A DNA stretch of 64,000 nucleotides. Origin: Branchiostoma floridae (Eukaryota; Chordata; Leptocardii; Amphioxiformes; Branchiostomatidae). Of this stretch, positions 17,301 to 59,634 are shown in pieces; position 1 is the stretch's first letter; each line of letters opens with the position of its first letter. Below the pieces are notes generated by a model. It was not told the origin of the DNA, made no database searches, and was given only the letters and a program-made list of their open reading frames with translations. The stretch is from positions 13,358,599-13,422,598 of the forward strand of contig NC_049990.1 in the NCBI RefSeq assembly GCF_000003815.2. The letters run 5' to 3'. The position numbers were made by a program, and so were the translations under genes.

Positions 17301-20300
17301 AAATAAAATACAACACGGTATATTCCTTATCACCCTTGGTCCTGCGAGTCGGGCTGGTACCTCGGGTGATATGGAATACACCGTGCTGTGTTCTTTATCT
17401 ATAGGTTATAGTACTCCAAAAGCCTTTGCAATGATGCTACAAATGTATCACTTATAACTTGTGACTTATAGAGGAAATCGTGCCTCACTTCGGTGGCATG
17501 ACCATGGTCAGTTTTTAGACAGTTTTCTTAGTAACGTAGCAGGGCTTCGTCCTCGGTCTTTAGTTCCACAGCTCAGAGTGGCACTGATACAAAAAACACA
17601 CAAACATGGTGGCAATACTTACTGTACTTTTGAACTGGCCCTGGAATGTGTCCACCACTACAGACTGGTTGTCTCTCACATACATCTCCCACTCCAGGTC
17701 GGCTTCACTCTCCCCTGAACACTCCTCCATTTCTAACTTCGACACATCCTCCCCAGCTTCTCCCCCTTTCACACCCTCAACAGCCTCTTCCCCTTTCACA
17801 CCCTCCATGGCGACTCCCATCCTGTTCAGCACTTTCCGGGGGGGGTTCAGTTCTTTTTTGGACATGAATAACTTGGTGACCTTGCACTTGGGGCCCTGGA
17901 CATCCCGGCAGTGCAAGCTGGTTATTGCTGATGTTACTGATGAAATCTGTGGCTCTTCTCTTCTGCTCATCCTCACTTGGCCCACACTTTAAGGATAAAG
18001 CACAGTCTACTTTCAGTCTCTGTTGTGCGATATTCTGTCCTTTCACCTGTAGCTCCTCACAGCATGCACCCTGTGTAACACAGTGTCCCTGTTTCTCTGC
18101 CATCACATTTGTGTCCTTGTTGTTAAGTTTCACGCTCTCGTCTGCGGTATTGTGGACCTTTCTATGACACAGGCTCTGTACTCTGGGCGGAGACTTGACA
18201 GACTTCTCATTATTCAACGTGTACGTTGTCTGCAAGTTTGTGTTCAGAGTTTTAGTATCCTTCATCAGGTATTCCTCAAAGTTGGGAAGATTTCGGGCCG
18301 GACTTTGTTCTGTGTGAAATGAGGGACTTCCCTCTAACACCAGCAGGTTGGAAGTGGGGGAGGGTACGTCCATACTGGTTACACTGCTCTTAGATTCCTC
18401 ACTGTTGTCTTCATATATGGCACATTCCTGGTCACCGGGGGCAGCCAGGGGCTGGTCTGGCAGGACTCGATGCTTCTGTACAAGTTTGTGACTCTTGTTC
18501 AGCTCCTCATGAAGACTATCCAGAAGCAGAGCAAGAAACTCCTGCCCATCGTGCTGTGTGAGGAGACAAACAGCCTAGTTAGTACATACAATGTCATACA
18601 GGTACATGGAAGAGGCTCCACAATAACTTTGGAATTCCACTTTTCCCATTTTGAAATGGGCTTATATTTTCAATATAAAAGCACTTGGTGAAAAGTCTTT
18701 ACATGTGATTGACAAGTATGATGTACAGTTGTGAAATATGACAATAACTTTCATGAATATTCATTTTGAAAATTTTCTTCCTGCAGGGATTCCTGCAGGA
18801 ATTCCTGCAGGAAGCGTTTTTCCTGCAGGAATTCCTGCAGGAAAAACTTTTTCCTGCAGGAAATCCTGCAGAAATTTCCTGCAGGACAAAGGTAAATTCC
18901 TGCAGGAAGAATGTTTTCTGCAGGAATTTCTGCAGGAATTCCTGCAGAAATGACCTTAAAATTAATATCTAAAGCAATGACAGGAAGAGTTCTGTATGCA
19001 TTTCATTTTGTTTTGAAACTGTTAAACTGTGCCAATTTCATTAGCTGTTTTAGCCTTGACTTTCAATGTCTAAAATAGATATATATTGGATGCATTGTTT
19101 ATTGTTTCATTTTCCTAATTTTATTGATTATGTTGCCGGAGATGCCTGAGGCATTAGAAGAAAAAAAACTGCCCTATGAATTAACTTGTCTTTAACAAAA
19201 TGCCTGTCCTGCAATGGTTACTCATATTTTTTCAGAGGTACTCATATTTTTCAGAGGTACGGAAGCTGTGGCAATTACTATTAGTTACCTCTTCTATTTT
19301 TTCTTTAACCTCAATACTGACGTTTTATGAGTATCTAAGCCAATTTGAGTGCCCAAGAACTATCCATTTAGCATCCATAAGGTAAGTAAAAACATTTAAA
19401 GGATCAGAAGTCAGCAAAGAAATGGATTTACATTATTTTTTGTAGTACCTCCATTAGCACCTGTACCATGTATAAGATAGAGTTTAAGCACTGAAATTGC
19501 CAATATGCATGCTGACGAAATTGTTACCGCAGCAAGAGGATGATGGTTTCTACATGTTTTTGGGTAATATTCGGTGAGGCAGCGATCGCCCTCTACCCAC
19601 AGTTCCGTTTAATACTGATCACAAAATTAGTACCTTATTCTCAGTTTGACGCAGAACCGGACGGACAAACCACCCTGGCATGGAACGTTGTGACGATAGC
19701 ATCGGTCACGAATAGGACTTGCCTTACTTAGAACAAGATTTCCCTTTAGAAAACTGAAAGGCATCTTCTCTGATTGGCTGAAAGCTGGTTTGTGGCGAAG
19801 CCCAAAGTAACCGAAAAGCTAACGTAAGCAAGCAGAGGGACCAGACATTTGCCAGAAGGAGTATGTAATGGGAGTTGTTCCCTCTGCATAGGAGTATGCG
19901 GTGTTGAAAATGATGAAAATATGCCGGGAGTTGGGGGGGGGGGAGGTGTGCTTGCTCCCAGCAACTTTAACTATGTGTAATTTTGATGGAAATGTCATTA
20001 ACTTATCTTAGTTAAAATGCAAGAAATACCATTTCAGAGGGTCAAGATTTTCAGGCCTCTGGTGCGATGCGTTGTGCCTTCGGCGCTCCACATGCATGCT
20101 GAAAATTTTGTCAGCAAAAGTTCACCCCTACCCCCACCCCAAAATGGATTTACTGCCGCCCGCATAACCTCTGTAGTGGGAACTCTGCCCAAGCTAAGCA
20201 ATGTCATGGAGGCAGCTGACATTGCCTGTCATTCCTCCGGGTTCTGGACATCTTTTTCTTCTCACATTGTCATTAGCTAGTCAGCTTTTCGTACAATAAT

Positions 20301-23300
20301 CCTAGCATTGCACAAAAGGATTGCGCGTTATGCTTTGCAACTCCTCCTGAATTTACCGTTTAGCATTACTAGCCCTCCTGAATTTATCGTTAAGCGTTAC
20401 TCCGCCTTCTCAATTCACCGTTAAGCATTACCTACCAAGACAACCCCCTCTCTTGCAGACCCTCATGTAAGGGTGCCCACATTAACAAGAAAACTTCTCA
20501 GAATGCTACTGACCGTATACACTTTTTCTAGATGAAAGGATTTGTACTCCTATCCTATGGTCTACCAACCTGATGAAATTATTTTGGGGACTTCCAGTAA
20601 CTATTTACTGAATTCTAAACTATAGTAAAAAATTTTGCTCATCTTCTGGACAAGTAAATCATGAACCACTTTGTTAGCCATGCTGATCGCTGGTATCTTT
20701 GGGTTATAGAAATCAACCAGGCTTTATAATAAACCCCTCAGGGTGCAACATTGATCATATATTATCATATATGTGGCATTGACCTGTCATGCGATGCCAT
20801 AACACATAGAAGTGTCCCAATCCGGGTATGTGGACACCTAGAAATTCATTCACTGGTGTTTTAATGAATCTCTATTTAAACAGCTGTTTTTAATGCATTT
20901 CTAGGTGTCTAATTGAAATGATATATCACCCATCACCAGATCCGATCAGTTAAAAGAACAATTTGACCAGTAACACCCTTTCCTCAGCTGTAACTCTTTT
21001 CATGCTTTAAAGTCCTTGAGACTGTGACAAAGGCCTTTTTATAACAAGAGTGTGATAATCACTTTCCCCTCCCCATTCTCACCCATCTTTAGAGAAGCCA
21101 TTCTCTAATCTCCTTTACACCTACATGTAGGTGTTTAAAATCCAGCAACAACAATGCATGCACTAATTTATAATGACAGGTAATTAGAGAAATGAATGGT
21201 AGTTGCAACTTGGTAATTAAGAAGTAGACTAAGTTTACCCAAGGAGGTTTAACTTCCTTCCTTTACCTTGCATATCACAAAGGAGTTTTAAAGCTCTGAG
21301 CTCACTGACCTAACCTAGATTTTCCAACAGCAACCTAATGGAATAGATTTTTAGTCTTTACTATTTGCCTTTGGTAATCTTTACTCTTGGCTACCCCAGG
21401 CCTAGGTCTCTTGTGATTTTATTATTGATAAAAGCTCCTTGGTTTAAGACAAAAAAATTTCCTGATCATTTAGATGGTGATAGGTTTGAAGGCTGATATC
21501 AGATACTGATAGCCAGAATAAAGCTACCAAACCAGAATGGCTGTCACATCAAAATATATGCCACAGGCCTTCTACTACTTAGAATAATAAGAATTATTTG
21601 CCACTGCAGTCCGCATAGGGTATTGATAGGTGAAATTTGGGGTCCTGGCCTATGGACTATCTTGCAGGTGCTAGCATGTGCTATAGAGAGGTGTTGAAAA
21701 GCTGAAAGGCCGACAAAGTAACAACAAAAATTTTTTGATAACCAAACTTAATGATAACCTGGGTTTTGATCTGGTACAAAGTACAGTTATCTTTTGGACC
21801 ATTAACAATTCAACATGAAGCCATGAATGCCATGAAGCTGTTACCGGTGATTCATATGAATAGAAACATCAGGCAAAAGTTTGTTCCAGAGATTATTTGT
21901 AGTTTAGGTTCCAAATCCTACTACATGGGCAGGCTGTATATAAGGTGCTTACCTTCCTCTTTTTGGTAATTATGCACATTGTTATGCGGGTTGAAAGGAG
22001 GTCAGTTATTGTCAAGGCATGCTCCCCAATTAGCAAGTTATTAGCAAGTCCCACAGGGACCTTCCCAAAACACTGTGAAATTTCTATACACAACTGCTTT
22101 ATAGAGCCTGGTGGACAGTCAGGCCAAGCAAGGAGGTTGAAATTATTTTTTTAACCTCCTTGGGCCAAGGATGTTTCATATATTAAACGTCCTTGGTCAG
22201 GCAAAGAAAATTTCAGATTAGAACTTTAAAGTTGAAGAAACCTGAAAATTCACTTCTGGATGGATTACAGGATTCAAGTCAGATCAAGAAGCTTTCGTCA
22301 ATAAAAGTTCCTTGATCCTCCTTGATCTCACCAACTTGATCGGGCTCGACACTTTTGGACTACCAGTACTAATGGCAACCTTTATTTGGAAAAATGGGAA
22401 ATTAGGCAGTGCTGTGCACTGCACTATAGCCAAACAACTTCTCACTTTATTATATACATGTACCATTAAAGCTTGGATCCAGGTTACATCCAGGTACGTG
22501 GGGTCATACTTTGTGGCATCACTGAGGAATGTGAACGTTTTCAGACATGAATCTGATATTTCAGCCAGTTTCTGAATCATAAAATCTTTTTTTTTCTGGC
22601 AGCCAAGTCTTGATATATATTTGGGATGATCAGGGGATCCAGAGGAAACCAAGGACGTTACATCAACGTCCTTGGAAACATGATGTGTTTGAAGGCATTT
22701 GAAAGTCCATGAAGGAATGCAGCTTCAGTATTATAAATAATAAAGACAGAGGTTCATAATCTCCAAGCAGATCTTGCTGTAGCATAAGATAGTATTATAA
22801 GCTGGGGAAGGAGTTGAACCAGCAGAGGAGTTTTCTGCCAGCTAAACTCCTTCCCTATCCTTATGACACCGCAAGATCTGCTTGGAGATTATAGAGGTTA
22901 AGTGCTGATCACAGACAAAGAATCACTGTGCAAAAGTGGGGTTCAAAAGGCACCAGTCTAACATGGTCTGGTTTGTCACCTTTTAGCCTGAGTGTTTAGT
23001 GTGTTGGGTTCACTGAGCTGGTGGGCCCGGGTTAAAATCCTGGGAGCCAGGAGACTACTACTTGCCTCTTGTGTTTCAAAAGTGCAAGATTGTGAAGGAC
23101 CTTGCACTTCTGTGTCAGTGGGAAAGATGGCCTCAAGCCGACTTCTTCCAAGCCAGTCCTCACGATGTGGTTCAGCATGTGAGAAGGCCTGTTAACCTTT
23201 ACTGCCTCCTCAAGACATTTAAGATTCATTGTTTGACATTGCCTGGGCTAGACCCTATTGAAGAATATCATACATCCAACATCTGCCGAAACTCTTCACC

Positions 23301-26300
23301 CAGCAGACGTGCTTTAGGCGTTTTTGTCGAACTTCCTATTTTGCACTTTTTTTTCGTGCAAATGGACAGGAGGAACACAGTATGAATTAAAAGCCAAACA
23401 AAAAGTTGAAAAATGCCTAAACTGTAGCCCAACCTCTGCTTGGAGAGTAACCGGCGTGACACAGAGATTCTATCTTTCCAAGCAGGTTGAAAAAAGATAT
23501 CTTTCATACTCTCCAAGCAGAGGTTCAGCTCCAGCTGTTTTTGATGTGTTAAAGGCCTTGGCCAGCAGAGATGAAGGAAACGGTACAATATTAAAATAGA
23601 AAACTTGACAAAAATGCCTAAAAGCATGCAAGGAGGTTGAAAACAACCTCCTTGAAGCATGTTAAAAACAGCCAGAGCCAAACCTCTGCTTGGAGAGCTA
23701 TTTTTCCATGTGCCACTTTTTGTTGGCTCTATGCAAATCTAGACAATTCACGCCTTGTTCATATCCACAAAGTCGGGTCTGGTACCATGAATGCTGACCG
23801 AAGGGGGTCTGATAGACACCAACTGACCAAGGAGGTTATATTCAGATATAACCTCCTTGAACTGACCAAGCAGTTGTTAATCTGTGCTGGTTGAAAAGAC
23901 ACAGCTTAAACTTTAAAGGGCTTGTTGGCAAGTGACAGATGGATATTGCTGGTGTTTCCACTATGGCTTACAACCATGCCTTTTTTTGGCTTGTTGACCC
24001 TCCTTTTAGGTGATTTTGTCAGGCCAGAGAGGAAAATCCTCAAGTAATTATTGTTATGCAGGTTCAAACAAGGTCAGCTTTTGTCCTTAATACAATTGCA
24101 AAGGATACATGTGCAATTATCAAGTATCCCACAGGGACTGTCCAAGAACCCCAGGTGGTGACTTTCTTCCTAACACGTGTCTTGCTCAGAGATAAGTCCT
24201 GGGCTTCAGTCAGCGCAACGAGGGTTTATCTACTCTCCAAGCAGAGGTTAGGCTCCGGCTGTTTTTTGACGTTTCACTTTAGTCGTTTTTATTGAGCTTT
24301 CTATTTTGTCATGTTTCTTGAAGTACGCCAGCCAAACAATACAAGATACAATACAAAATAGAAAGCCCAATAAAAATGACTAAAAAAAAAACGTTAAAAA
24401 AACAGCCGGAGCCAAACCTCTGCTTGTACTCTGTTGTAGAGTGGCTTTATCATGACAACCTTCCTTACTTGGTCAGTGGTATTTCAGAATGACAGAAACC
24501 TGAAAATGTACTTTTGGGATGGATTACCTTGCTCAGATGAGTCCCATTCTTCTAAATCTTCTTGAGAACTACATGTAGAATATTAAAAAAGAGACATTTT
24601 GATTTACGATAATTATCTAAGTCTGGCACCCCCTCCCAAACCAATCAATGTTCAAACCAAACTGGCCGGCCCGGCGTTAGTCAGAAAACAGTAACTGTAT
24701 GTAATATTGATTAGCTTGTTGTAGAGCACTCAGAGAACTGTCCTTTTCAACACATCCCTACAAGTAATCTCCACGCGTGGCCAATTTACTCCTCTGCCGG
24801 CTAAACTCCTTCCCCCAGCTTATGTGCTGTCTTATGCCATGCAGGATCTGCTTGGAGATTACCCTACATGTAGAGCCTCCTCTATATCTAGGGCAGGGCC
24901 TAGGGTATTTATTTTATTGGTTTGGCTGCAACGAACACACAGCCAGGGCTGCCCAACTAGCCTATGGCTATTACAAAGGGCTAGCCCTGCTGACAAACAC
25001 ATAAACAATACATATTAAAAAAGAACATTTAGGCCTAGGGTGACAACCCTTCCATTGGCAAACTCACTTGAGTCACTTCCCTGGCATTTACATTAAGTAA
25101 TAGGGAGTTTGGCAACTTTGAAACTAGCATAGCAGTTCCACAACTAGAAGGACCAGCTTTTATTTTCGAGCTCGGGTCTGATTTTATCATGGTCATTACT
25201 GACAGAAGGGGGTCTGATAGCCAGCAGCAGTTGTTTACTTTTAACACAGCTTGAAGGGCAAACTGGCAGCAAGGCACAGCTGGATTGGAAAGGCACAGAG
25301 GTGCTGACTTCATTCCCAAACCTCCTTGGTTTGAGCAGTCTATTAGCTAAAGTGGACATATTTTTAAGCTCTTTAAAAGGACCATCAAATTTTCACAAAA
25401 CTTTAAGAAACATTGTTCATAGTTTAGCCCTAAATTGAAGACAACCTTGATTTACCCTACTGGTTTAACAATTTTAAATTCAAATATTAGTGTTAAAGTG
25501 AACTTAGGTTTCTGAAATTCTGTAATTCTTCTGAAATTTCTTCTATTAATAATGGACCGCTGAGTTCCAGGGTTCGAATCTCTTTGAAAATTGATTCAAG
25601 GCCTTTGATCCTCAGCACTATAAGTTACAGGTAGCCAGGATGTTTGGACCTGGATTCTTGCTAATTGTTAATTGGACACCAGCATCATTTGCATATCTTT
25701 AGAACAATAGCTGACCTTACTTTGAACCCGCATTACAATAGCGCATACTTACTTGAATTTTCAACTAGAGGAAGCAAGCTCCTGGCTAATGTTACAAGGC
25801 CCAATTTTAGATTATGAAATATTCTCTGGAACAAACTTGCCAATGAAGCATAACAACTTCATGGCATTCCATCCCATTTATACTCAAGTGTTAATATCTT
25901 ATGATGATCAAAAGATGACCAAGGAGGTTAAAAAACACCTTGACCAGATCAAGGAGGTTGAAAAGAGGGACCGTTGGTACTGTATTTCAATGCATGTATG
26001 GAAGGAGCATTCAAACAGAGCAAGGAGGTTGAAAGAGAAAAGAGGAGTTCATTTGATGAAAACACCACAGCCGTGTAAGCACAACATAGGCTGTTAAACA
26101 TGTCATGGCCAACTGACTCATACTTTGTGTGTAACTTTAATTTGTGAGTTATCTATACGAAGATGAATCAATTATGTTATTTTGTTGGTCTTTTGCAACC
26201 TTTTCTGTAAAATTTCTACCCCTCGAGCCTCCGCACCTCCTACCCCCTATATATAACTGGCATTTGCAACAGGCCAAGAATAAATGCAGGACTATCAAAT

Positions 26301-29300
26301 AGTAGCACATTGACTATGATTGAGAAGGGAAGTTTCTGATGAGAGAATTTTACTTACCAGAGTTAGAGAACAGTTTTTCCCTTGTAATGTAATGTACAAA
26401 CTCAGATAAACTTTTATGCTAAATAAAAGCTTATCTATCCTGAGGTTTCTGCAATATTAAGATCAGGTCAGTCAATTCCTTATAACATCCTTGCTCAGAA
26501 CTTGTTTAAAAACTCCCTTGTTGTAGTCTGGAAGGCATATACTAGTATGAGATCATTAACTATACTTCTCACCCAATTGAGACTGTCTTTCACTTCTCTA
26601 ATGACCTGAATTACAAATTAGTACATGCATTGTACGCTAGTTTACACCAGTAGATAATCATGGCTTCTTTAGAGATGGGCAGGAAAGGGCAGGAGAGGTT
26701 ATTATGACACCTATACATGAGCCTTTTGATGAATCTTACAGCATGTACCTCAGGAGTTATGGATGAGGAAAGGGCCCGTATGTCTGTGGTCATACAATTT
26801 TTTCTGTGTGTAAAGAGGACATACAATAGATCCTGGGTAAATGTATGACCGTCCAGCCTCGTGTAAAATAGCCGCTGTCATGGGCACCCCCCTTTCAGTT
26901 TCAGGCGGATTGCATGATGGCTGATGGTTACATTACAGCTTATGTGCCAGAAGGGAACACATTTGTTGAAACCAAGTTCTAGTTGCCTCTTCTCATGCAG
27001 GCATTGTTATGGCCGGTGTGGGAATTCCTACCAGAAAATTCTTCTTGGCTGGGAGTGCTTTTAAGTTTTATATTGAAAATGTTAGCACTTGACAAAATGG
27101 GAAAAGTAGACTTGTAAACTTCAACTGAAGAAATTGTTTATATATTGAAGGCAGTCTACATGTAATTATGGGGAGGGCACCCTAACATACCAGGCTTTTT
27201 CATGCCCTTGAAGTTTAGTTGCCAGAGAGTTGTCAAGTTCAGAATGCGATTCAATGAATTCTTAACACATTCATCCATGGAACATACTTGGATCAAAAAA
27301 ATGGATTTATCTTAGCTTGTTCATGCCCTGCGGATACAAGGCCCTCTATTATGTATGAATATATTTCACTATATATTCACAGTCAGGTTTGATAAACAAC
27401 TAATGCAATAGGCACAGTTTAACAGTTTCAAAACAAATGAAAATAATCAAATTGATAAGAACTCCTTGGTGTTATTGCTTTAGATATTAATTATAAGGTC
27501 ATTTCTGCAGAAATTCCTGCAGAAAACATTCTTCCTGCAGGAATTTACCTTTGTCCTGCAGGAAATTTCTGCAGGAATTCCTGCAGGAAAAAGTTTTTCC
27601 TGCAGGAATTCCTGCAGGAAAAATGCTTCCTGCAGGAATTCCTGCAGGACTTCCTGCAGGAAGAAAATTTTCAAAATGAATATTCATGAAAGTTGTTATC
27701 ATATTTCACAACTGTACATCATACTTGTCAATCGTATGTAAAGACTTTTCACCAAGTGCTTTTATATTGAAAATATAAGCCCATTTCAAAATGGGAAAAG
27801 TGGAATTCCAAAGTTATTGTGGAGCCTCTTATGACAACAACAAACCCAATCTATATACATGTGACTAGGGCTGGGTATCGGTACAGAAAATTCAGGTCCA
27901 GGTCCAGAACCTGAACTTAGACCTGATCCAGTATGTGAAAACATGTGAATGGACGATACTAAAAAAATGGTCCATTTTGCAACAAAGAAATCTGTTTTGT
28001 GGACTATTCGACTCCCACTGGCATTTTAAATCTTATAAGGCTAACTGCCTCTAAACAATTGACAGTGAAACTTGGTAGAGATGACTATGGAATCTACTCT
28101 ACTTTGCTGTTGTTATTTTCTTCAACAAGTAAGCCATAAAACGTGTGAATGCCTGATCATACAATATGTTCATTTTCCAATAGGTCCAACATCAGGTCCT
28201 CCGACGAATTTTTTCAGGTCCGTTTTTTCCGGACCGGTCCAATAAGAAAAACGGTTTTGTGCTGGTACCCAGGCCTACATGTGACTATAGGGGAATCCCT
28301 GGTACATAGAGTACAGACATAACATTGTGACCCTGGGAGGGAGAGTACGGACATTGTGACCATGGGAGGGAGAGTACAGACATGACATTGTGACCCTGGG
28401 AGGGAGAGTACAGACACTGTGACCCTGGGAGGGAGAGTACAGACATGACATTGTGACCCTGGGAGGGAGAGTACAGACATGACATTGTGACCCTGGGAGG
28501 GAGAGTACAGACATGACATTGTGACCCTGGGAGGGAGAGTACAGACATGACATTGTGACCCTGGGAGGGAGAGTACAGACATGACATTGTGACCCTGGGA
28601 GGGAGAGTACAGACATTGTGACCCTGGGAGGGAGAGCACAGACATGACATTGTGACCCTGGGAGGGAGAGTACAGACATGACATTGTGACCCTGGGAAGG
28701 AGAGTACAGACATATAAGAATACCATTGAACAGAATATCTTACCTGTCTAAAGCCCTTGAACTGTGGAAACTGATGGCCCAGTCTTTCCTTAAACTTCCT
28801 TGGCTTTAAGTAAGAGTATCTTCCACTCCAGACCTTGTGTACCAGGGCAGCAAACAGGCCGCACAAGCTATCCTCTGGTATAGAACCTACGGAAAACAAT
28901 GGGATCATACTGCACAAGCACATAGATATGGAAGGAGTTACGTTAATCTATTTTACTAAATAATTTGACATTAATGAACTTATTGTTGTCGGAAGATGTC
29001 TGACAGACATCTAAACATCAGCAAGTGAGAAAAACTCGTTGTGTAAAAGAAAATTTCAATGTCCACCTATTGTTGTCTTAAATCATTGATTTTCATGATG
29101 ACAAAAAATGGTGAGCTCATATTGGCAGTTGTGGAAATGGAAATGAGGATGACCTGAACTGAACTGAACTGGTTCCCCACAGTTTGAGGTGTATGGTCAG
29201 GAGCTCTTGGGAAGGATGTGTAACAACAGGACTCAAAATACCCCTGCATATGCAGGGTAGTGCAGGTAAAATTGGAGCTGTGCAGGTATTTCTGGCGTCT

Positions 29301-32134
29301 ACCTGCACCTAACCTGCACTAGTTCATATACTGTTTTTATGTAAATAGCATGCAGGTGTTAAGGATTGTTATTAGCTGCATTGACTGTTACCACCTATAA
29401 AGAATAAAAGAAAAAAATAGCAATGGTTCCTGAACAATTTTAGTACAATCCATACTTGCCAAATTCAGAGTGGTGCAGGTAAAATTTGTCTGGTGCAGGT
29501 AACTTTCAATGTTACCTGCACCTGTTCAGGTATGCAGGAAAAAGGATTCCGAGCCCTGAACAGGTTCTACAGTTGCATGTACCTGTCACCCTCATAGTCA
29601 TACTCAGGGTTGACAATCGTGGCAAAGCCTAACGATATCACCCCTGACAACTCAGCCACAGAATTCAGTTATTAGGGGTGTGGCTTCTAATCAACTGTCA
29701 GCCCATCGGAGAGAGGGCATCACCGTATACCGACCTAGCATACGAAAAAAAACATTATCGTCACTCAACAGATCTTTGTGCACACGGCGCAGGACCATGC
29801 GTACGCTGTTTGTCCGAAACTTACAATCCGGTCGCTGATTGGCCTGCGACAAATCAGGCAAGCTCATTAATATTCATAAGCAAGGCACCCCTAATACCCG
29901 TTTTCTGTGGCTGAGTTGTCAGGGGTGATATCGTTAGGCTTAATTTGCCGCGATTGTCAACCCTGAGTGTTGAGGGTGATATGTGTTGGCCCTGACATAC
30001 CTGTTGGTGCATCCAGGATGAAGCTACAGAGCTGTGCATTGCTGAGCAGACACTGTAGACCTGCATTCATGAAGCAGGTATTCCCCAGGTTGTGCAGACC
30101 ACATGCACCTTGTTCCCACTCCACATCTGAAATTAGACAGAAAGGACTATTGTTTACTGTGGTCTGTAATATACCACCAAATTTTAGTTCCACAAACTTA
30201 CACCAATTTACAGTGCAGTGAAATCTGTCAAGGGAATGGCCTAATGTGACCACTATAGACAGGTGCTATAGACAATATGCTGATTAGTTGACTACGAGCA
30301 ACTACGTGACACATAATTTCACCGGGCATTTCATCTTAGGTCTAGAACATTGCCTTTGAAAACTTGTGAATTGGTGATACTCAAAAAATGGTCCATTGCA
30401 CTACCATGGAATTTGTTTCGTGTGTCAAAAATACTTTTTTACTGTTACAATAGATCTTGAAATGACTATAAACACTGTTCTCCTTTGCTGTTGTTATTTT
30501 CTTTGACTGCGCCACAAAACGTGTGGATACCTGCCAATGCAGTGTGTTCATTATATAATCGGTCCAAAATTCAATAAATAGAAATTTCTTGACTGGGGAA
30601 GATATAATATATCAAGTGATACAAATAAGCAAAGATTTATCAAACAAATTTATCATATAATAAGCTATGTGGATGATGTTGATCAACTTATTTATAGATC
30701 CTACCAGAGCTTTAAGAAAGATAGAGCTCTGTTTGAGGTTATGTATGTAGATATACATATAGAACTGCTCATTTACCCTCAGGGGACATGAAAAGACTTC
30801 AGTGAGAAGGGTAGTTATATGGCATGTCCACGTATATCAATAACTTGCAAGCCCTGTTCACACTTGTGCCTAGATTCAAGTCCATCTGAGTTGCATTTTG
30901 ACATTTTTGGTTATTTTGCACTTAAATCCACAGTTGTGCAGTCTGGTTATTATACAAAAAGCTTCTGCTCAGACCTCAAACTTTAAGTTTTATCTACAAA
31001 AGTCAGTGTGCAACTTACATGGACTTAAACGTACACACACGTTTAAATGAGCCCTTAGTATTGTCCTTGGTTATCTGACCTAGGTTTGTAAAGACAGATG
31101 AAAGTGTAGAAAACAGGAAGTTTACCAGAGACATCCTTGTTGCAGGAGGGATAGGTGGATGGTCCGGCTATCATATCTGGGGCCGATGAAGCAGCCTCCA
31201 CTGTACAAGACATCATAAAACATTATATAATAATTAGTGTTCAAGATTGTCAGTGTGTATAACAGATTCTCATGCTCAGACTCAGCAAAATACTGTAAAT
31301 GCAGAAACTTTTGTGGTGGATTAATGTTCGCAGTTTTCGCAGCGGCCGCTTCACCGCAAATTTAAAACCACTGTGAACATTTTTCCATAACAGTAAGAGA
31401 CTACAGTGTATGATGCTATCGCGAAATTAAGAGCTGTGTACCGGTACAGAAAACTCATGTCCAGGTATGTTCCAGGTCCAGGGGTTCAGGTCTCAGTCCG
31501 GACCTGAACTTTGGACCTCATTATTTGTGACAACTTATGAATGGGCGATACTCAAAACAATGGTCCTTTTCGCTACAAAGGATTCTGTTTGTTGGAGAAG
31601 ACGACGTCCATTTTGAAATTCTATCTTCATGCAAAAAGCACTAACTGCCTCTGTTTTAGCCCAGGTTTGACTGTAGAAACTCAGTAAAAATGACTGTCAA
31701 CTATTCCCTACTTCGCTCGTTATTTTCTTGGAAGGGTAAACCCCAAAACACATGAATGCCTACTGATATAATCGTTCATTTTCGAATCGGTCCAACATCC
31801 AGTCTACCAATTTTTTTGCAGGTCCAGTTTTTCTGGACCGGTCCAACAAGAAAAAACGGTTTTGTACATCATACCGGTACCCACCCCTAGCAGTCCCCCA
31901 TGTACATTATGTATAAAGTAATCCAGCCTAACCCCTTGTTTCTCCTGCATGTCCATCCTCAGGTCCAGTGCCCTGGGCTGGGGTGGGACTGTCCAGTACT
32001 GCAGCAGGCATGTAGTCCATCAGGTCCATGGGCTGGTCAAACAGACTGTCTCCAAAGTCCCTCACAATGGCAGGCATGGTGTTCACTTTCTGGTCCCCGA
32101 CCTCCTTCTCAAGCATGTGCAGGGCAAACGTCAT
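5046..32134 (-). CDS. USP-family deubiquitinase with embedded RING finger
   Basis: Predicted C19 cysteine protease that removes ubiquitin, about 1,098 residues from 17 exons. All intron phases agree if one base is removed from a C8 run in exon 5. Domain order: N-terminal leader (1-92); Cys box GLHNLGNTCFMN with nucleophile C110; QEF motif HDGQEFL near 183; first zinc knuckle C495/C498; ubiquitin-like insert (about 524-600) resembling that of USP4/15; RING-type finger 661-706; second zinc pair C796/C799, C805/C808; knuckle C878/C881; VVYLKRF; His box NAGHYTCF with H961; YYND near 977; Pro/Ser-rich acidic tail. All catalytic motifs are present, so it should be active. The subfamily resembles USP4/11/15/19 but I cannot assign an orthologue. 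The start ATG at 32,134 is the first in an exon that begins four codons upstream at an AG acceptor, so an upstream exon is likely. Host introns carry many transposons. Confidence 0.93.
5387..6237. mobile_element. TA-flanked foldback element, CAGTCAAACCTG ends
   Basis: Starts CAGTCAAACCTGTCCGAGCG and ends with CAGGTTTGACTG, with TA on both sides (5385-5386, 6238-6239). The arms contain repeated CGACCACCT motifs. TA duplication suggests a Tc1/mariner-type mobiliser (inference). It lies in the last intron of the USP gene. Related debris occurs near 12,295 and 49,815-50,030. Confidence 0.75.
6906..7049 (-). CDS. USP exon 16, His box
   Basis: Acceptor TTTGTGCAG, donor GTAAGG, phases 1 to 1. Encodes GVNAGHYTCF with the general-base histidine, WRYYNDETV, and the domain-closing NVYVLFYQRKG. 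Confidence 0.92.
7640..7745 (-). CDS. USP exon 15
   Basis: Acceptor TGCTGCAG, donor GTATAG, phases 0 to 1. Encodes VHYPLETLDVSAL and YDLQSCILHFG, the strand before the His box. Confidence 0.9.
8529..8688 (-). CDS. USP exon 14, second zinc knuckle
   Basis: Acceptor TTTGTAG, donor GTAAGT, phases 2 to 0. Encodes the YCSQC knuckle and the USP signature LVVYLKRFVFH. Confidence 0.92.
8804..9145 (+). mobile_element. CAGGGCTCGAAATAC-family element, copy 1
   Basis: Starts CAGGGCTCGGAATACT and contains repeated TGCAGGTA/TACCTGCA motifs near both ends. The right end is eroded (TTTTGCGCCC). Same family as 13,411, 29,227, 42,618 and 44,789. Confidence 0.7.
9299..9522 (-). CDS. USP exon 13, extra zinc pair
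   Basis: Acceptor follows a C12 tract; donor GTCTGC; phases 0 to 2. Encodes CSRC-x5-CSGC followed by LKPGDHLTVRL. The cysteine spacing suggests a small zinc ribbon inside the catalytic insert. Confidence 0.87.
10011..10271. mobile_element. Foldback element with TATGGATGACATC ends
   Basis: TTATATGGATGACATC at the left pairs with GACGTCATCCATAAAAT at the right. Same family as 4,130-4,679, non-coding. Confidence 0.55.
10306..10434 (-). CDS. USP exon 12
   Basis: Acceptor CATCACACAG, donor GTTGGG, phases 0 to 0. Encodes MRLFGYPRVLYAPSEVTG and downstream residues, similar in position to the USP4/15 segment after the catalytic insert. Confidence 0.85.
10743..10800 (-). CDS. USP exon 11
   Basis: Acceptor TTCTGCAG, donor GTCTGT, phases 2 to 0. 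Encodes IVQIPVMFRYDYMETGQEQ. Confidence 0.85.
10862..11308. mobile_element. hAT-like non-autonomous element, copy 1
   Basis: Ends CAGGGCTCTGGCCAGC and GCTGGCTAGAGCCCTG, flanked by an exact 8-bp duplication GGCCTGAT (10,854-10,861 and 11,309-11,316). CAGGG ends plus 8-bp duplication are typical of hAT transposons. A reverse-oriented copy is at 44,097-44,445. Confidence 0.85.
11710..11786 (-). CDS. USP exon 10, end of RING finger
   Basis: Acceptor TATCCACAG, donor GTTTCT, phases 0 to 2. Its first codons supply V-C, completing the final CPVC pair of the RING-type finger, followed by CILVDPSLGFRRLVSCEG. Confidence 0.85.
12375..12416 (-). CDS. USP exon 9, 42-nt RING linker exon
   Basis: Acceptor TTCCTTCCAG, donor GTATGT, phases 0 to 0. 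Encodes the 14 residues LTSKHYLNSGFQCP, the loop between RING cysteines 6 and 7 plus the start of CPVC. Confidence 0.85.
13411..13690 (-). mobile_element. CAGGGCTCGAAATAC-family element, copy 2
   Basis: Starts CAGGGCTTGAAAACCACCTG followed by CATATGCAGG. The far end is truncated 19 bp before USP exon 8, so transposon sequence nearly abuts that splice donor. Confidence 0.65.
13709..14032 (-). CDS. USP exon 8, RING first half
   Basis: Acceptor GTGTAACAG, donor GTACCA, 108 codons, phases 0 to 0. Encodes the end of the ubiquitin-like insert (LFAYHQDDGTLLRYVNA), then a Ser/Asp/Gln-rich linker and RING ligands C661, C664, C680, C682, C685, C688 (CAVCLEEM to CLCDTC). Confidence 0.88.
14685..14956. 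mobile_element. Foldback element with about 75-bp arms
   Basis: TATGCAGAGACATTCAACAG through GCTATCTCAACTGTCACCAT at the left is mirrored at 14,877-14,956. The short core carries AAGCTCATTAATATTCAT, also found in the foldback at 29,587-29,979. The element ends 36 bp from the donor of USP exon 7. Confidence 0.75.
14992..15167 (-). CDS. USP exon 7, ubiquitin-like insert
   Basis: Acceptor ATGTTTTCAG, donor GTGGGT, phases 1 to 0. Encodes VVTWVPCDHSTPVRYCLTV and DMVVLAEVFDHHISRTL, resembling the second ubiquitin-like domain of USP4/15. Confidence 0.87.
15570..16830 (+). mobile_element. TA-flanked CTCTCA element, copy A
   Basis: Ends CTCTCACCTCTCAAATAGAA and TTATTTGAGAGGTGAGAG, flanked by TA (15,568-15,569 and 16,831-16,832). 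Subterminal GTACCCCCTGGAATAAAA units are repeated. The interior has an ATGGCGGATG start with a short frame that is broken by one extra T relative to copy B. It sits between USP exons 6 and 7, 65 bp from exon 6. Confidence 0.85.
16895..16988 (-). CDS. USP exon 6, first zinc knuckle
   Basis: Acceptor GTGTTTCAG, donor GTAAGT, phases 0 to 1. Encodes VTCSVCHHPSVTYEPFMYL and SVPLPRATD, the typical USP zinc-knuckle and strand motif. Confidence 0.92.
17623..18553 (-). CDS. USP exon 5, QEF box; C8-run frame change
   Basis: Acceptor CTCCTCACACAG, donor GTAAGT. Starts HDGQEFLALLLDSLHEELN, then a long low-complexity Ser/Lys/Asn insert, and ends DNQSVVVDTFQGQFKST. The exon is 931 nt although both borders are phase 0 (a multiple of 3 is needed). 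The frame switches at a run of eight C (plus-strand G8, 17,838-17,845). Either one base is extra in this sequence or the allele is frameshifted. Confidence 0.88.
18780..18955. repeat. CCTGCAGG palindrome array, left arm
   Basis: About a dozen overlapping TTCCTGCAGGAATTCCTGCA units within the left inverted repeat. The same array in inverse order lies at 27,500-27,665. Confidence 0.85.
22118..22202. mobile_element. Nested pair of micro-palindromic insertions
   Basis: The inner 34-bp unit 22,129-22,162 (CAAGGAGGTT ... AACCTCCTTG) is flanked by GGCCAAG repeats. Removing it and one repeat leaves CAAGGATGTT ... AACGTCCTTG flanked by GTCAGGC on both sides (22,118-22,124 and 22,196-22,202). The inner duplication straddles the outer insertion junction. 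Confidence 0.85.
22650..22674. mobile_element. Micro-palindrome CAAGGACGTT/AACGTCCTTG, 25 bp
   Basis: Variant of the CAAGG micro-palindromes with perfect 10-bp arms. The flanks share only GAAAC, so the duplication is degraded or shorter here. Confidence 0.55.
22756..22893. mobile_element. Foldback element ATAATCTCCAAGCAGATCTTGC
   Basis: Perfect 22-bp arms ending in ATAATCTCCAAGCAGATCTT, with inner mirrored CTCCTTCCC and GGGAAGGAG segments. A diverged copy lies at 24,768-24,863. Nested in the 9.2-kb segment. Confidence 0.7.
23432..23700. repeat. CTCTCCAAGCAGAGGTT repeat cluster
   Basis: Several direct and inverted copies of ACCTCTGCTTGGAGAG occur at 23,433, 23,511 and 23,682. These are ends of the same foldback family as 24,232-24,432 and 35,799-35,972, rearranged here. 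Confidence 0.55.
23629..23654. mobile_element. Micro-palindromic insertion, 26 bp
   Basis: CAAGGAGGTTG AAAA CAACCTCCTTG, flanked by perfect 7-bp repeats AAGCATG (23,622-23,628 and 23,655-23,661). Confidence 0.85.
23828..23859. mobile_element. Micro-palindromic insertion, 32 bp
   Basis: CAAGGAGGTTATAT mirrored as ATATAACCTCCTTG, flanked by perfect 7-bp repeats AACTGAC (23,821-23,827 and 23,860-23,866). Confidence 0.85.
24232..24432. mobile_element. Foldback element CTCTCCAAGCAGAGGTT, copy 1
   Basis: The left arm ACTCTCCAAGCAGAGGTTAG continues through GGCTCCGGCTGTTTTT. Its inverse AACAGCCGGAGCC-AAACCTCTGCTTG is near 24,402-24,427. A homologous copy lies at 35,799-35,972. Confidence 0.7.
27500..27665. 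repeat. CCTGCAGG palindrome array, right arm
   Basis: Mirror image of the array at 18,780-18,955, inside the right inverted repeat of the 9.2-kb segment. Confidence 0.85.
27865..28276. mobile_element. Element CTAGGGCTGGGTATCGGTAC with 8-bp duplication
   Basis: Left end CTAGGGCTGGGTATCGGTAC, right end GGTACCCAGGCCT, flanked by exact ACATGTGA (27,857-27,864 and 28,277-28,284). Relatives at 31,430-31,890 and, partially, about 30,330-30,570. The 8-bp duplication suggests a hAT-type element (inference). Confidence 0.75.
28286..28720. repeat. 34/28-bp minisatellite in USP intron 4
   Basis: About 13 copies of units such as TGACCCTGGGAGGGAGAGTA plus CAGACATGACATTG (34 bp, with 28-bp variants). The array ends about 24 bp downstream of the donor of USP exon 4. 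On the minus strand each unit contains a pyrimidine-rich CTCTCCCTCCCAG acceptor-like motif. Confidence 0.92.
28744..28886 (-). CDS. USP exon 4
   Basis: Acceptor TTTTCCGTAG, donor GTAAGA, phases 1 to 0. Encodes GSIPEDSLCGLFAALVHKVW through KFKERLGHQFPQFKGFRQ, which leads directly into HDGQEF in exon 5. Confidence 0.92.
29227..29558 (-). mobile_element. CAGGGCTCGAAATAC-family element, copy 3
   Basis: Starts CAGGACTCAAAATACCCCTG and ends GATTCCGAGCCCTG. TGCAGGTA motifs occur near both ends. Flanks AACAA/AACAG suggest a decayed 5-bp duplication. Confidence 0.7.
29587..29979. mobile_element. Foldback element with about 80-bp arms
   Basis: The left arm runs CACCCTCA, CTCAGGGTTGACAATCG, CCTAACGATATCACCCCTGA, CAACTCAGCCACAGAA. 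All are mirrored at the right up to TGAGGGTG. The core includes AAGCTCATTAATATTCATAA. It ends about 20 bp from USP exon 3. Confidence 0.8.
30001..30126 (-). CDS. USP exon 3, catalytic Cys box
   Basis: Acceptor CTAATTTCAG, donor GTATGT, phases 1 to 1. Encodes GLHNLGNTCFMNAGLQCLL; the Cys of NTCF is the nucleophile. Confidence 0.95.
31126..31200 (-). CDS. USP exon 2
   Basis: Acceptor TTGTACAG, donor GTAAAC, phases 1 to 1. Encodes VEAASSAPDMIAGPSTYPSC, a linker before the catalytic domain. Confidence 0.75.
31430..31890. mobile_element. Diverged relative of the 27,865-28,276 element
   Basis: GTGTACCGGTACAGAAAACTC at the left and TACCGGTACCCACCCCTAG at the right. The interior shares CTGGACCGGTCCAA-type segments and the CTTTTCGCTACAAAG region with the other copy. 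It ends 43 bp from USP exon 1. Confidence 0.65.
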
Positions 32135-32146
32135 GACAAGGAAAGC
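31933..32146 (-). CDS. USP exon 1 seen (N-terminal leader)
   Basis: Acceptor CCTTGTTTAG before GCTTTCCTTG, weak donor GTTAGG, exit phase 1. The frame is open from the acceptor (AFLVMTFALHMLEKEVGDQK), with ATG at 32,132-32,134. Either this ATG is the start after a non-coding exon or coding sequence continues upstream. Confidence 0.7.
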
Positions 32147-32171
32147 CTAAACAAGGAAACATGAGTTTTGT

Positions 32172-32530
32172 TGAAGAGGTTCATCAGTCACATATGAATA
32201 CAGTTACTCCAAATTTCCTTCAAGCAATGATAGTTTTTAAAAGTAAGGTACATACATACCTCCAAATTTTTAATGTCTGACATCACATCTTGATCTTGGA
32301 TAACGACCTAGTCTCGATCTCACGAGAGAACACGAGGGGGGGGGGGGGCATGATCTACGCAAGCCTGACCTAGTCTCGATCTCACGAGAGAACACGAGGG
32401 GGGGGGCATGATCTACGCAAGCCTGACCTAGTCTCGTGTTCTCTCGGGAGATCGAGACTTGGTCATTTTGGAGGTATGTACCTTACCTTTAAAAACAGTC
32501 GTTGCTTGAAGAAAATTTGGAATAACTGAA
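32172..32530. mobile_element. Foldback element GTTGAAGAGGTTCATCAGTC
   Basis: The left arm runs from GTTGAAGAGGTTCATCAGTC to ACATACCTCCAAATTTTTAA. The inverse TTTTGGAGGTATGTACCTTA is at 32,465-32,525. The core holds two tandem copies of CTAGTCTCGATCTCACGAGA with poly-G runs and one inverted copy. Confidence 0.65.
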
Positions 32531-33423
32531 ACATGAGTTGCAAAGTCAGGTTTAAAGTATTACATGCATATCAGGATTAGACAAGTCCATCGGCAAGTGA
32601 AATCTACTGAAATACACTATGTTTTGATACGTAAACATTGCGGGTTGCTATATTTTTGCAAAGAATATTCTACATATGGACCTGGAATAAAGAAAACGTC
32701 AGAAAATACCTCAGCAACCCTACCATGCCCAGCCCCGATCATATCGCGAATCAGCACTCTCCCACTCAACAATATTTTCTGCATAGTGATTTCTTGTACA
32801 TGCATATACAGGAATGGGATTTTGTGCGAGTGAAAAATCTGTGCATGACAATATGCAAATTCACTGATTCCCAAGAGATTTTAAAACTTTTTGTAGTTTT
32901 ACACTTAAGATCTTAAAAATGGGCTATTAAAAAAGTTTTATTATCATATTGAACATAACATTCTAGAGTTGACAAACTTTGTTTGTCAATATTGAAGTTA
33001 TCTTTATGTTAAGTTTGAAATTTGCATGTGAAACAATCTGCTTGAGAAAAGGTTGAATGAAGCTTATAAAGAAAGACAAAAGCCTCAAGTTGTTATAATG
33101 TACAATCATACATAACCTTATACTAGTAACCTTTCCTTGTATTTCTGACAAGTTTGAGTGATTTCAAAATATTCCTGATATGTAATTTAGGTCCAACGGA
33201 CATAAAAATCAGGAATTTTTGAACAAAAAAATTCAGTTTACAGATAGAAAATCATATCAAGTGGTCACATTTTTCTGCCTTAAAGTTTAAACTTAAGTCC
33301 TCACTGCACATTTTTTCAACATGTTTTGAGAACTTTGTTTTGTCACGTGCAAATTGTCCATGCGCAGAAAACCTGTACCCCATATACATGTTATTAACTA
33401 TGTCATCATGTACGAAGGTGTGT

Positions 33424-33752
33424 GGGGCCGCGTAGCACAGTGGTAGTGTATTCGGCCCGTGACCGAGAGGTCGCCGGTTCGAATCCGCCTGCCGTGTTGC
33501 CGGTCTTTCCTCACTTTACTCAAGTGAAAAATGAGTCGTCCCTCGGATAGGACGTTAAATGGAGGTCCCGTGTTTGAGGAGAGCCATACCCCATGCACCT
33601 TAAAGAACCCCCATACGTGCGATGGTGCAGTGTGAGTGGATCAAAAACTTACAGTCTTGTGTACGTCTTACGTACCGTGCTTGCAGTCCTCAGCCTAATG
33701 AGGTTAAGCACGTATAAAGAAGAAGAAGAAGAAGAAGAAGAAGAAGAAGAAG
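33424..33752 (+). mobile_element. tRNA-derived SINE with (GAA)n tail
   Basis: The head carries pol III A-box-like TAGCACAGTGGTAG and B-box GGTTCGAATCC. It is followed by an unrelated body (GGACGTTAAATGGAGGTCCC) and a 3' (GAA)n run at 33,718-33,752. The body is shared with 50,395-50,560, which lacks a recognisable head. The 3' tail rules out a plain tRNA gene. Confidence 0.82.
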
Positions 33753-34175
33753 GTAGCTGAGCGATGCTCAACACGATGAACTTATATTAGTCAACTCGTC
33801 CGTAGAGCAACGACCATTTAGAAAAAATCGATCCCTATAGACTAGAAAATCCTGTAGCTATTGGCCGCTGCTAAACGACAGGATAAAAAGGCAATCAAGG
33901 AAGCCCAAAAAGCGAAAATGTCATCACAGTCCGACACACAGTTATATGGATGTATACAAGATCTAAACTTGTTTTTGATGAGTTCACTGTAAGTTGTACA
34001 ATGACAAAAGCCATGGGCATCCACCTAGATAAGGGTGAACTCTCACTGCTCTTGGGGCACGTTATTTGCGTGATTTTTTAATAAGTTGGATATTGCATAA
34101 TACGTAAAAGTATGACTTAGAAGATACCGAAATCCAAAAAAAAAGGAAGAACATTTGTTCTTTATCTCTGTAATT

Positions 34176-34370
34176 CGTTGATTCTGTAAGAATTCAGAGG
34201 GGCGAGTAAGAACAGAAAGAAACAAACATGCCGACACCCAAGATCAAACCCAGGTCGGCGGATTACAAATCATGACCGCTATCGCTGTCGGCACAAAAGC
34301 TCAGAGCTCCTTGGCCTTGGCAAGGACAGTATCGACTGTACTTGAACCACTGTTACACTACTCCCCCTTT
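34176..34370 (-). repeat. tRNA-like SINE segment, copy 1 of a local duplication
   Basis: On the minus strand a B-box-like GGTTTGATCTTGGG sits within a tRNA-like stretch, preceded by AAGGAGCTCTGAGC. The same arrangement recurs at 34,536-34,863. Confidence 0.5.
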
Positions 34371-34447
34371 TCTTTACAGGATTCGTCCTCAAATCTCTGA
34401 GATCGATATCCCTTTGTGGCACATCTTAGCCTGTTACTCACTGTGTG

Positions 34448-34482
34448 CAAGGAGGTTAAAGAAAGATTCTTTAACATCCTTG
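34448..34482. mobile_element. Micro-palindromic insertion, 35 bp
   Basis: CAAGGAGGTTAAAGAA mirrored as TTCTTTAACATCCTTG, flanked by perfect 7-bp repeats CTGTGTG (34,441-34,447 and 34,483-34,489). This copy lies outside the 9.2-kb segment. Confidence 0.87.
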
Positions 34483-34535
34483 CTGTGTGGCACATTTCTA
34501 GCCTGCTACTCACAGGGCCGGCATGGAAACCAATG

Positions 34536-58674: not shown

Positions 58675-59634
58675 ATGACGGACACGCTCATAGAGCAGGC
58701 CACGAAAATGGGCCTAGAAGGGCCGAGTATCCTCGAGTATGTCGAAAAACAACAGGCCATTGAGAGGGACGAGAGGGCAAGGGAAAGAGATGCTCAGAGG
58801 AAGCATGAGTTGGAGCTAGAGGCCCTAAAGCTGAAACAAGCTGAAATTAAAGCGGTACAAAAGCAAAATGCGGAGGAGGTCAAGGCGAAGACGCCAAGAT
58901 TACCAAGCTTCACAGAAGGCGAAGGAATAGACGAGTACCTCTTGAGGTTTGAGAGATTTGCACGTGCTAACCACTGGGCGGAAAACACGTGGGCGTCCCT
59001 ACTGAGCGCCCTACTCACGGGGAGGGCACTGGAAGTTTATAGCAGGCTATCGGATGATGATGCAAAAGATTACAAGAAAGTGAAGGATGCCATTCTTAAG
59101 AGATATGAACTTACGGAAGACGGGTTCAAGAAGAAGTTCAGGTCTGAAGTTCCTCAGGAGGGGGAAGGGCCGGACCAGTACATTGTACGTCTTAGGGGTT
59201 ACCTGAACAGGTGGATCGAGCTGTCTGATACCCCCAAGACATATGAAGGAATTTGTGACTTGATCATCCAGGAACAATTCCTGGATCTGTGCCCTGTGGA
59301 TTTGTCAGTCCACCTGCGGGAGAGGAAACCGAAGTCTCTGGAGGAGTTAGGGAAGATGAGCGGGCAGTACCTGATTGCACATGGCCGTGGTCTGTTTGAA
59401 GGGGCACGCCCGCGCAACCCACCCCGAACAGACCAGGTGTTGTCTGGTACAGCCAATGTGCGGGTTGTCACAACATCAGCAACCTCCAGGCGGCGGTGTG
59501 ACAGGTGTATCCAGAATGAGGCAGAGTGGTGTGGGCACTGCTTCCGCTGCGGCGGAAGCAACCATATTGCCAGACGGTGCTGGAAACAGGGAAACGCCGC
59601 GAGGACACCCCCAAGGGACGAGGGGTCGTCCTAA
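58675..59634 (+). CDS. gag: Ty3/Gypsy Gag polyprotein
   Basis: 319 residues; start ACCATGACGG. It has a charged coiled-coil segment (about 25-70), a capsid region with a SCAN-like stretch (about 140-240; [32 protein letters not shown]), and a CX2CX4HX4C zinc knuckle [14 protein letters not shown] at 289-302. The SCAN fold is known to derive from Gag of this retrotransposon class. The last 36 codons overlap pol in the -1 frame. No internal stop, so the copy is fairly recent. Confidence 0.93.
59589..59632 (+). promoter_or_regulatory. Programmed -1 frameshift signal
   Basis: Heptamer G-GGA-AAC at 59,589-59,595 with GGA AAC in the gag frame. A 6-nt spacer follows, then a stem AGGAC/GTCCT plus CCCC/GGGG (59,602-59,611 with 59,622-59,632) that reaches the gag stop codon. 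Pol is open in the -1 frame. Confidence 0.85.

Follow-up and report, generated by a model that had tools for sequence, protein, structure and literature searches.

The window, a 64,000-nucleotide stretch of the Branchiostoma floridae genome (NC_049990.1:13,358,599-13,422,598, forward strand, assembly GCF_000003815.2), contains four short palindromic units between exact 7-bp direct repeats, all lying where an earlier note had placed them. Each is a putative excision scar; no strand is assigned to the units, and all target duplications are given on the + strand. Unit A (22129..22162, 34 bp) reads CAAGGAGGTT...AACCTCCTTG and lies between copies of GGCCAAG at 22122..22128 and 22163..22169. Unit B (23629..23654, 26 bp) is flanked by AAGCATG (23622..23628 and 23655..23661), and unit C (23828..23859, 32 bp), which has the ends of an ATAT family and by eye resembles loci L018, L031, L035, and L038, is flanked by AACTGAC (23821..23827 and 23860..23866). 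Unit D (34448..34482, 35 bp) lies between copies of CTGTGTG (34441..34447 and 34483..34489). All four had been described as sharing their ends; this holds for A, B, and C but not for D, whose right end, AACATCCTTG, differs by one base.

We also identified an older fifth unit, E, which is interrupted by A. Unit E is bordered by exact 7-bp copies of GTCAGGC (22118..22124 and 22196..22202), and A separates its opening four bases, CAAG (22125..22128), from the remainder (22166..22195), which as now read is CAAGGATGTTTCATATATTAAACGTCCTTG; the CAAG of this remainder is that of A's right duplication, which overlaps the start of E. A's duplication GGCCAAG covers the left junction of E. The window holds two further candidates, both worn: unit F (22650..22674, CAAGGACGTTACATCAACGTCCTTG), whose flanks share an exact 5-bp GAAAC and match at 2 of 7 positions in register, and candidate scar G (21240..21260), which has a worn right end, AACTTCCTTC, and the flanks GTTTACC and CTTTACC (6/7).

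The exact two-ended pattern occurs three times in the window, whereas 100 shuffled versions of the sequence averaged 0.00 matches. Among the 172 maximal hairpins of 18 to 60 bp in the window whose arms match exactly over 8 or more positions, the flanks matched at 7/7 positions in the three that start with CAAGG and at no more than 5/7 in the remaining 169, in which F was counted with a register one base longer. Units D and E fall outside this set because their arms are mismatched or split. A search of the whole host genome (513 Mb) for the end pattern, a check proposed in the earlier note, returned 1,535 exact-end units of 20 to 50 bp, while the reversed pattern used as a control returned none. 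We then read the flanks at 73 distinct sites and found the duplication expected on both sides of a scar exactly in 52 and with a 6/7 match in 12. The flush repeat was 7 bp long at the same number of sites (52/73) and 8 bp long at 3/73. On contig C1, the 50 sites among the matches listed, two of which are mutual copies, comprised 31 with exact 7-bp flanks, 12 with 6/7 flanks, and 7 with lower matches, the last including L004 (4/7) and one site with an 8-bp flush repeat. When right flanks were shuffled between sites, 1.2% of pairs were exact (53 rows including 3 repeats, self-pairings permitted). The earlier note was right about the transposon-type ends, the 7-bp staggered cut of the target, and the independence of the sites.

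Some copies did arise by duplication of their surroundings. A 46-bp unit has been copied within a dispersed repeat (11/50 among the matches listed), and L053 and L054 have 3,231 bp in common at 99.5% identity. Nevertheless, the silent reversed-pattern control, the flanks that differ at each site, and the 7-bp flush repeat at 52 of 73 sites leave a negligible probability that the units are chance palindromes or segmental-duplication copies, and both ideas are refuted for the flank-read sites, except for the few copies just named. Three IMG/VR contigs that carry the pattern without a duplication (2-3/7) were set aside as unrelated.

The search for a longer relative with identical ends, likewise suggested in the earlier note, led to a set of transposons that we call the family-1 parents. 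Seven copies of 1,157 to 1,168 bp were read through; all seven have exact 7-bp duplications, and their pairwise identity is 98.3 to 99.8%. The left and right ends of these elements, which are about 1.16 kb long, have 16 bp in common. We collected 50 loci with a family-1 20-mer, 48 of them distinct, so that by design at least 20 nt of the searched-for end is present at each. Twenty loci were taken by hand: L093, L094, and L095 were chosen for a 20-mer at both ends, and the other 17 followed list order. The 48 distinct loci comprised 33 two-ended scars, 11 loci with an element body, and 4 one-sided loci; scars therefore outnumber elements in this sample by 33 to 11, a ratio that becomes 31 to 10 when L093, L094, and L095 are left out. 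The flanks of the 33 scars were exact over 7 bp in 31 cases and matched at 6/7 in 2.

In these 33 of 48 loci, the short unit consists of both parental ends, each retained over no more than about 20 nt and joined variably, mostly at 0 to 2 nt common to both ends. Unit D in the window has the same composition, with 18 nt of the family-1 left end and 18 nt of the right end sharing one G, apart from one substitution (by-eye comparison with the parent ends). The commonest scar length was 39 bp (9/33); seven of these nine scars were 20 + 20 nt minus one common G, and two were 20 + 19 nt. In a few long units, from family 1 and others, the centre appeared by eye to be filled with host flank or with flank plus end sequence (L004, L028, and L025/L039), the kind of filler that end-joining repair produces; the example of the 46-bp unit represents a single event multiplied by its repeat. 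Two ends of a known parent with variable joints were found for family 1 only, the one end family that was traced to its parents; for the other end families, the identical form of the units suggests the same origin.

The earlier note had taken the 26- to 35-bp units for transposed elements, which would make them ultra-short MITEs of 20 to 40 bp, moved and inserted intact by a transposase acting on their 10-bp ends. The exact 7-bp duplications (52/73), the many copies, and the nesting of A in E all fit this idea, but they are equally expected of scars, and the nesting needs only a second element landing there. The interiors of the units differ and include no common body. Moreover, a unit that had transposed would not be expected to contain, at its centre, sequence from the place where it landed. 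The variable joints of parental end pieces in family 1, the host-flank centres of some units, and the existence of full parents with a like duplication make mobile ultra-short elements very improbable, and we abandoned that reading once the parents and the host-derived fillers had emerged. Most likely, the tiny palindromes are scars of the repair that followed the departure of larger transposons, rather than miniature elements that are themselves mobile.

We consider it highly probable that every unit is a scar from the excision of a larger DNA transposon of the cut-and-paste type, whose earlier insertion had duplicated 7 bp of target. In the proposed sequence of events, the larger element would insert and duplicate 7 bp of target, after which its transposase would nick one strand at the border between element and host and the other strand about 20 nt inside the element. 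On departure of the element, each host end would retain the duplication and a tail of about 20 nt of transposon, and the two tails would be nearly complementary because the ends are inverted repeats. Host end joining would then link the tails, either through 0 to 2 common bases, or after one side had been trimmed, or with filler copied from sequence nearby. The product, duplication - left end - right end - duplication, would resemble a small palindromic insertion.

The amount of end sequence retained bears on where the cut was made. The unselected end of the 33 family-1 scars was retained to exactly 20 nt in 11 (9/31 without L094 and L095), to 18 or 19 nt in 4, to 23 nt in 1, and to 0 to 16 nt in 17. 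Since 23 nt is kept in a few scars (L088 and L106), 20 nt marks a peak rather than a strict ceiling. Genome-wide, 136 of the 1,535 units are 41 to 50 bp long and, by subtraction, 1,399 are 20 to 40 bp long, which corresponds to about 67 units per length class at 20 to 40 bp and about 14 at 41 to 50 bp. Internal deletion in place, through interrupted gap repair or replication and with no transposase cutting some 20 nt into the element, would likewise leave duplications and both ends, and L093, a 314-bp derivative of the parent with an exact duplication, shows that such deletions occur. However, that process predicts a wide spread of retained lengths, in contrast to the 18 to 20 nt kept in 15/33 scars (13/31 without the two hand-picked loci), never more than 23, and to the roughly five-fold fall in units per length class above 40 bp; we therefore regard it as improbable. 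The peak at 20 nt would imply a long internal stagger at excision, although scars do not reveal which strand is cut at which position.

The transposase responsible likely belongs to the P superfamily, although membership is not proven. The symmetrised target motif over the 52 exact sites was TTnGTnnnACnAA, of the form GTnnnAC, with T and A at a frequency of 0.75 at positions 2 and 6 of the duplication; a 7- to 8-bp duplication with a GT...AC motif is what is expected of this superfamily. The profile PF21787, a TNP-like RNase H domain that from its name we take to be of the P/THAP9 type, matched three loci in the genome (C19:10311853, C11:17076605, and C6:14994104; best E value, 2.2e-20; controls silent). 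The 3,447 bases around the best of these loci contained no exact CAAGGAGGTT end and no pair of near-ends with matching flanks, and when the frame at this locus was compared with PDB sequences, no P transposase emerged, the top match being an unrelated protein (E value, 0.73). PF12017 and PF21788 gave no match in the genome, which is uninformative, as their controls were silent too. Within the window, a Pfam search of ten frames returned no transposase. Among 1,287 window end pairs (up to 15 kb apart, with at most three mismatches in total), which we searched for an autonomous element, exact 7-bp flanks occurred only in A, B, C, and D, and G had 6/7 flanks; for nine half-sites in the window, the potential partners within 20 kb were all weak and unconvincing (6/7 flanks and 5 to 7 of 10 end bases).

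No transposase is thus tied to these ends, which leaves room for a like scar mechanism driven by an enzyme from a different superfamily (hAT-like, MULE-like, or undescribed) whose cuts also fall inside the element. The terminal CAAGG is compatible with, and would presumably match, the hAT end consensus too. Excision by hAT transposases, however, takes place at the element ends and is not known to leave inverted-repeat remnants, and the duplication here is 7 bp at 52/73 sites and the 8 bp typical of hAT at only 3/73. The hAT element hobo also has a GT..AC target motif, but its duplication is 8 bp at 99.83% of 1,198 sites, according to the accessible text of PMC3276498. A 7-bp duplication with GT...AC is instead the pattern of 1360 and Galileo, and a long internal stagger is described as a hallmark of P in the available part of PMC7776569. 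We consequently judge another superfamily unlikely, though a P-type transposase is only the probable choice.

Comparison with known systems, based on the accessible portions of the sources cited, is in line with this assignment. The P-superfamily elements 1360 (7-bp duplication, GTTNAAC; PMC3276498) and Galileo (mostly 7 bp, GTATTAC; PMC4168063) share the duplication length and GT...AC motif found here. Galileo has very long inverted repeats, in contrast to the 16 bp common to the ends of the ~1.16-kb family-1 elements; this comparison concerns repeat length and not end sequences (PMC4168063). Repair junctions left by Drosophila P elements consist of an 8-bp duplication and as many as 17 nt from either end, with microhomology or templated insertions (PMC2895639, including its Table 1). 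Like the amphioxus scars, the P{wa} junctions combine a two-sided duplication with bounded inverted-repeat remnants, from 3' tails made by the transposase, and with microhomology, blunt, or filler joins, but they differ in having 17 nt and 8 bp in place of about 20 nt and 7 bp (PMC2895639). The P junctions come from marked laboratory lines, whereas those in amphioxus lie in a reference genome and number over a thousand by pattern. P-MITEs of Anopheles gambiae are also nonautonomous P derivatives with conserved ends, but their duplications are 8 bp long, their bodies run to hundreds of bases, and the accessible text mentions no scars (PMC1562414). Titles and abstract openings, a range outside which Repbase and most subscription papers fall, did not name these ends or genome-wide scars.

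Together, these results favor, with some reserve, the view that a P-like transposase lineage, cutting some 20 nt in from the element ends and duplicating 7 bp, has lately been active in this genome, where it has left more scars than surviving elements and a readable record of germline excision and repair, with filler synthesis, at over a thousand independent breaks. Earlier work examined excision junctions from laboratory lines in sets of some dozens, as far as the accessible text of PMC2895639 describes. The amphioxus genome holds over a thousand marks of the same form as these, all from breaks with known ends, so that the position of the transposase cut (~20 nt) may be read from sequence alone. 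These marks would form a natural catalogue of how germline breaks are mended, by microhomology, trimming, or templated filler. They also call for caution, as palindromes of 20 to 40 bp with target duplications can be mistaken for ultra-short mobile elements, and they suggest that the lately active P-like transposons with 7-bp duplications in this genome are worth isolating.

The short palindromic units A (22129-22162), B (23629-23654), C (23828-23859) and D (34448-34482) all lie where the earlier note had placed them, but the right end that it gave for D was incorrect, the real end being AACATCCTTG. In 100 window shuffles, the exact two-ended pattern gave a mean of 0.00 matches per shuffle, and chance occurrences are thus not expected. 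Among 172 maximal hairpins in the window (18 to 60 bp, exact arms of at least 8), all three that start with CAAGG have flanks matching at 7/7 positions, and the other 169, which include the worn candidate unit F in a register one base longer, reach 5/7 at best. An older unit, E (22125-22128 and the remainder to 22195), carries GTCAGGC on both sides and is split by A. The GGCCAAG duplication of A spans the final 3 bases of E's left flank and E's opening 4 bases, and in silico removal of A and one GGCCAAG restored E with perfect flanks. Unit F itself (22650-22674) has worn flanks, of which 5 bp (GAAAC) are exact, and in a second candidate, G (21240-21260), the right end is worn and the flanks match at 6/7. 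The 10-mer end occurs in 14 exact copies in the window, 7 of them within A to D. The other 7 stand alone, at 21240 (unit G), 25319, 25920, 25950, 26021, 57082 and 60857; by eye, those at 25920 and 25950 share one frame of an open frame, which may be a coincidence.

As had been claimed, one unit falls outside the 9.2-kb segment: D is outside, and A, B, C, E, F and G are inside. At its two borders, the segment has inverted repeats some 480 bp long (18610-19085 and 27354-27830; 88.6% over 490 aligned columns), which contain arrays of TTCCTGCAGGAA palindromes. A second inverted-repeat family with AACCTCTGCTTGGAGAG-like ends recurs within it at 23437-23528 and 24238-24426 (by eye and self-match). 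Elsewhere in the window, a dispersed repeat of about 330 bp is found at 42618-42947, 29227-29558, 8804-9152 and 13408-13691; its ends in the 42618 copy, CAGGG...CCCTG, resemble those of a hAT-type miniature element. Two open frames, 319 and 1,319 codons long, lie at 58675-63485 and by eye look gag/pol-like, of the gypsy retrotransposon type.

Across the 513,431,437-bp assembly, in which the window corresponds to C12:13358599-13422598, CAAGGAGGTT N(0-30) AACCTCCTTG matched 1,535 times and the reversed pattern 0 times; 136 matches are units of 41 to 50 bp, leaving by subtraction 1,399 of 20 to 40 bp. We read the flanks of the 50 matches listed, all on contig C1, and found exact 7-bp duplications at 31, 6/7 matches at 12 and fewer at 7, one of which carries an 8-bp flush repeat. 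Permuting right flanks among sites (53 rows, 3 of them duplicating a site, with self-pairing permitted) gave 1.2% exact, and so the proposed comparison of flanking 7-mers with a shuffle came out in favor of genuine duplications at these listed sites.

The interiors of several units are found more than once, joined at different points. The 20-mer CAAGGAGGTTAAAGAAAGAG is present at 103 genome places (reversed control, 0) and defines family 1, the one end family traced to parents. The 50 family-1 loci read cover 53 of the 103 places, 30 taken in list order and 20 by hand; of the latter, L093, L094 and L095 were chosen for having the 20-mer at both ends and the remaining 17 followed list order. 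Two were repeats, and the 48 distinct loci comprised 33 two-ended scars (matching flank exact in 31, 6/7 in 2), 11 loci with an element body and 4 one-sided loci without a clear flank. The longer relative with the same ends that the earlier note had suggested seeking was found among the body-bearing loci: the seven read end to end measure 1,157 to 1,168 bp, all have exact 7-bp duplications, and their pairwise identity is 98.3 to 99.8%. Their left end reads CAAGGAGGTTAAAGAAAGAG/AGGAGAGCG and their right end, as complement, CAAGGAGGTTAAAGAATCAC/AGGAGAGAGC. In L068, the sole parent copy translated, stop-to-stop frames do not exceed 153 codons. L093, a derivative of 314 bp, also has an exact duplication, and L098, L101 and L102 were seen at the left end alone.

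The short units are very probably scars of excised larger cut-and-paste transposons that had inserted with a 7-bp target duplication; internal deletion of the elements in place, instead of excision, is in our judgment highly improbable. In the 33 family-1 scars, the unselected end retains 20 nt in 11 (9/31 without L094 and L095), 18 to 19 in 4, 23 in 1 and 0 to 16 in 17, four of these short values (L088, L109, L111 and L112) resulting from strict prefix scoring of units in which one base is gained, lost or shifted at the duplication. The selected end, for which fewer than 20 nt was impossible by search design, retains 20 nt in 21, 21 in 8, 22 in 2 and 23 in 2; in the parent the following base is A, and this can be imitated by filler or by the other end. 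The commonest length is 39 bp (9/33), representing 20+20 minus a shared G in seven scars and 20+19 in L082 and L086, and the 40-bp scars (L078 and L095) are blunt 20+20 joins between two ends of one type. Scars of 21 to 24 bp have one side nearly gone and the duplication kept (exact in L073, L075 and L087; 6/7 in L066). In L106 (C6:19054248-19054293), 23 nt are kept on each side of an AGG/CCT join, and C3:27009732-27009776 resembles it by eye; such joins hint that cutting or trimming may also favor a second point, 3 bases deeper. Some long units have, by eye, a copy of the flank in their center (L004, L028 and the 46-bp unit L025/L039): the filler is 11 copied bases in L004, whose flanks match at only 4/7, and flank plus end in L028.

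Compared by eye with the parent ends, D appears to be a family-1 scar of 18+18-1 nt with one substitution. By eye, C belongs to the ATAT end family that is also seen in L018, L031, L035 and L038, and the form of A, B, E, F and G suggests scars of other end families. In form, the units match fly P-element repair junctions. The latter have a duplication of eight bases, at most 17 nt per end (the tails that the transposase leaves), and joins that are blunt, at small microhomologies or with templated insertions (PMC2895639), with cleavage 17 bp inside (PMC7776569); for the units here the figures are about 20 nt and 7 bp.

With copies collapsed, the C1 and family-1 sites amount to 73 distinct sites, 52 exact, 12 at 6/7 and 3 with an 8-bp flush repeat. 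The 52 exact sites yield the symmetrised target motif T T n [G T n n n A C] n A A, where positions 2 (T) and 6 (A) each reach 0.75, an equality that follows from symmetrising. A 7-bp duplication, as here, is reported for 1360 of the P superfamily (98.21% of 279 sites, motif GTTNAAC; PMC3276498) and mostly for Galileo (PMC4168063), whereas hobo, a hAT element (PMC3276498), and the P-like elements of zebrafish (PMC10983969) and Anopheles (PMC1562414) have 8 bp. Dada duplicates 6 to 7 bp, but targets RNA genes, and its U6 and U1 families are described without terminal inverted repeats (PMC3706591).

The genome does contain a P-type transposase domain. A profile search with PF21787 (TNP-like, RNase H N-terminal domain) matched three loci and nothing in control genomes: C19:10311853 (E = 2.2e-20, open frame of 767 aa; hmmscan, 7.3e-22), C11:17076605 (3.4e-19, 678 aa) and C6:14994104 (3.7e-9, 123 aa). 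PF21788 and PF12017 had no match in the genome or in the controls, and comparison of the C19 frame with PDB sequences found no transposase. Exact CAAGGAGGTT or AACCTCCTTG was absent from 3,447 bases around C19:10311853, where the nearest ends have 2 mismatches and unmatched flanks; a link between this domain and the scar ends is one that we infer. By eye, the P-type frame of L113, on C19, has about seven 13-residue repeats (PACTSEEDAPLPT) ahead of the catalytic domain.

The 46-bp unit of L025/L039 accounts for 11 of the 50 listed places of 41- to 50-bp units and sits in a dispersed repeat, as shown by L053 and L054, which share 3,231 bp at 99.5%. At L053 5836-5855, CAAGGACGATAACGTCCTTG has GAACTTGC on either side, and these 8-bp flanks may mean that the CAAGGACG end family uses 8 bp or is worn. 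Positions 2287-6362 of L053 form a dispersed repeat, recent and about 4 kb long, that carries a fossil scar along; this could help to date both the repeat and the scar.
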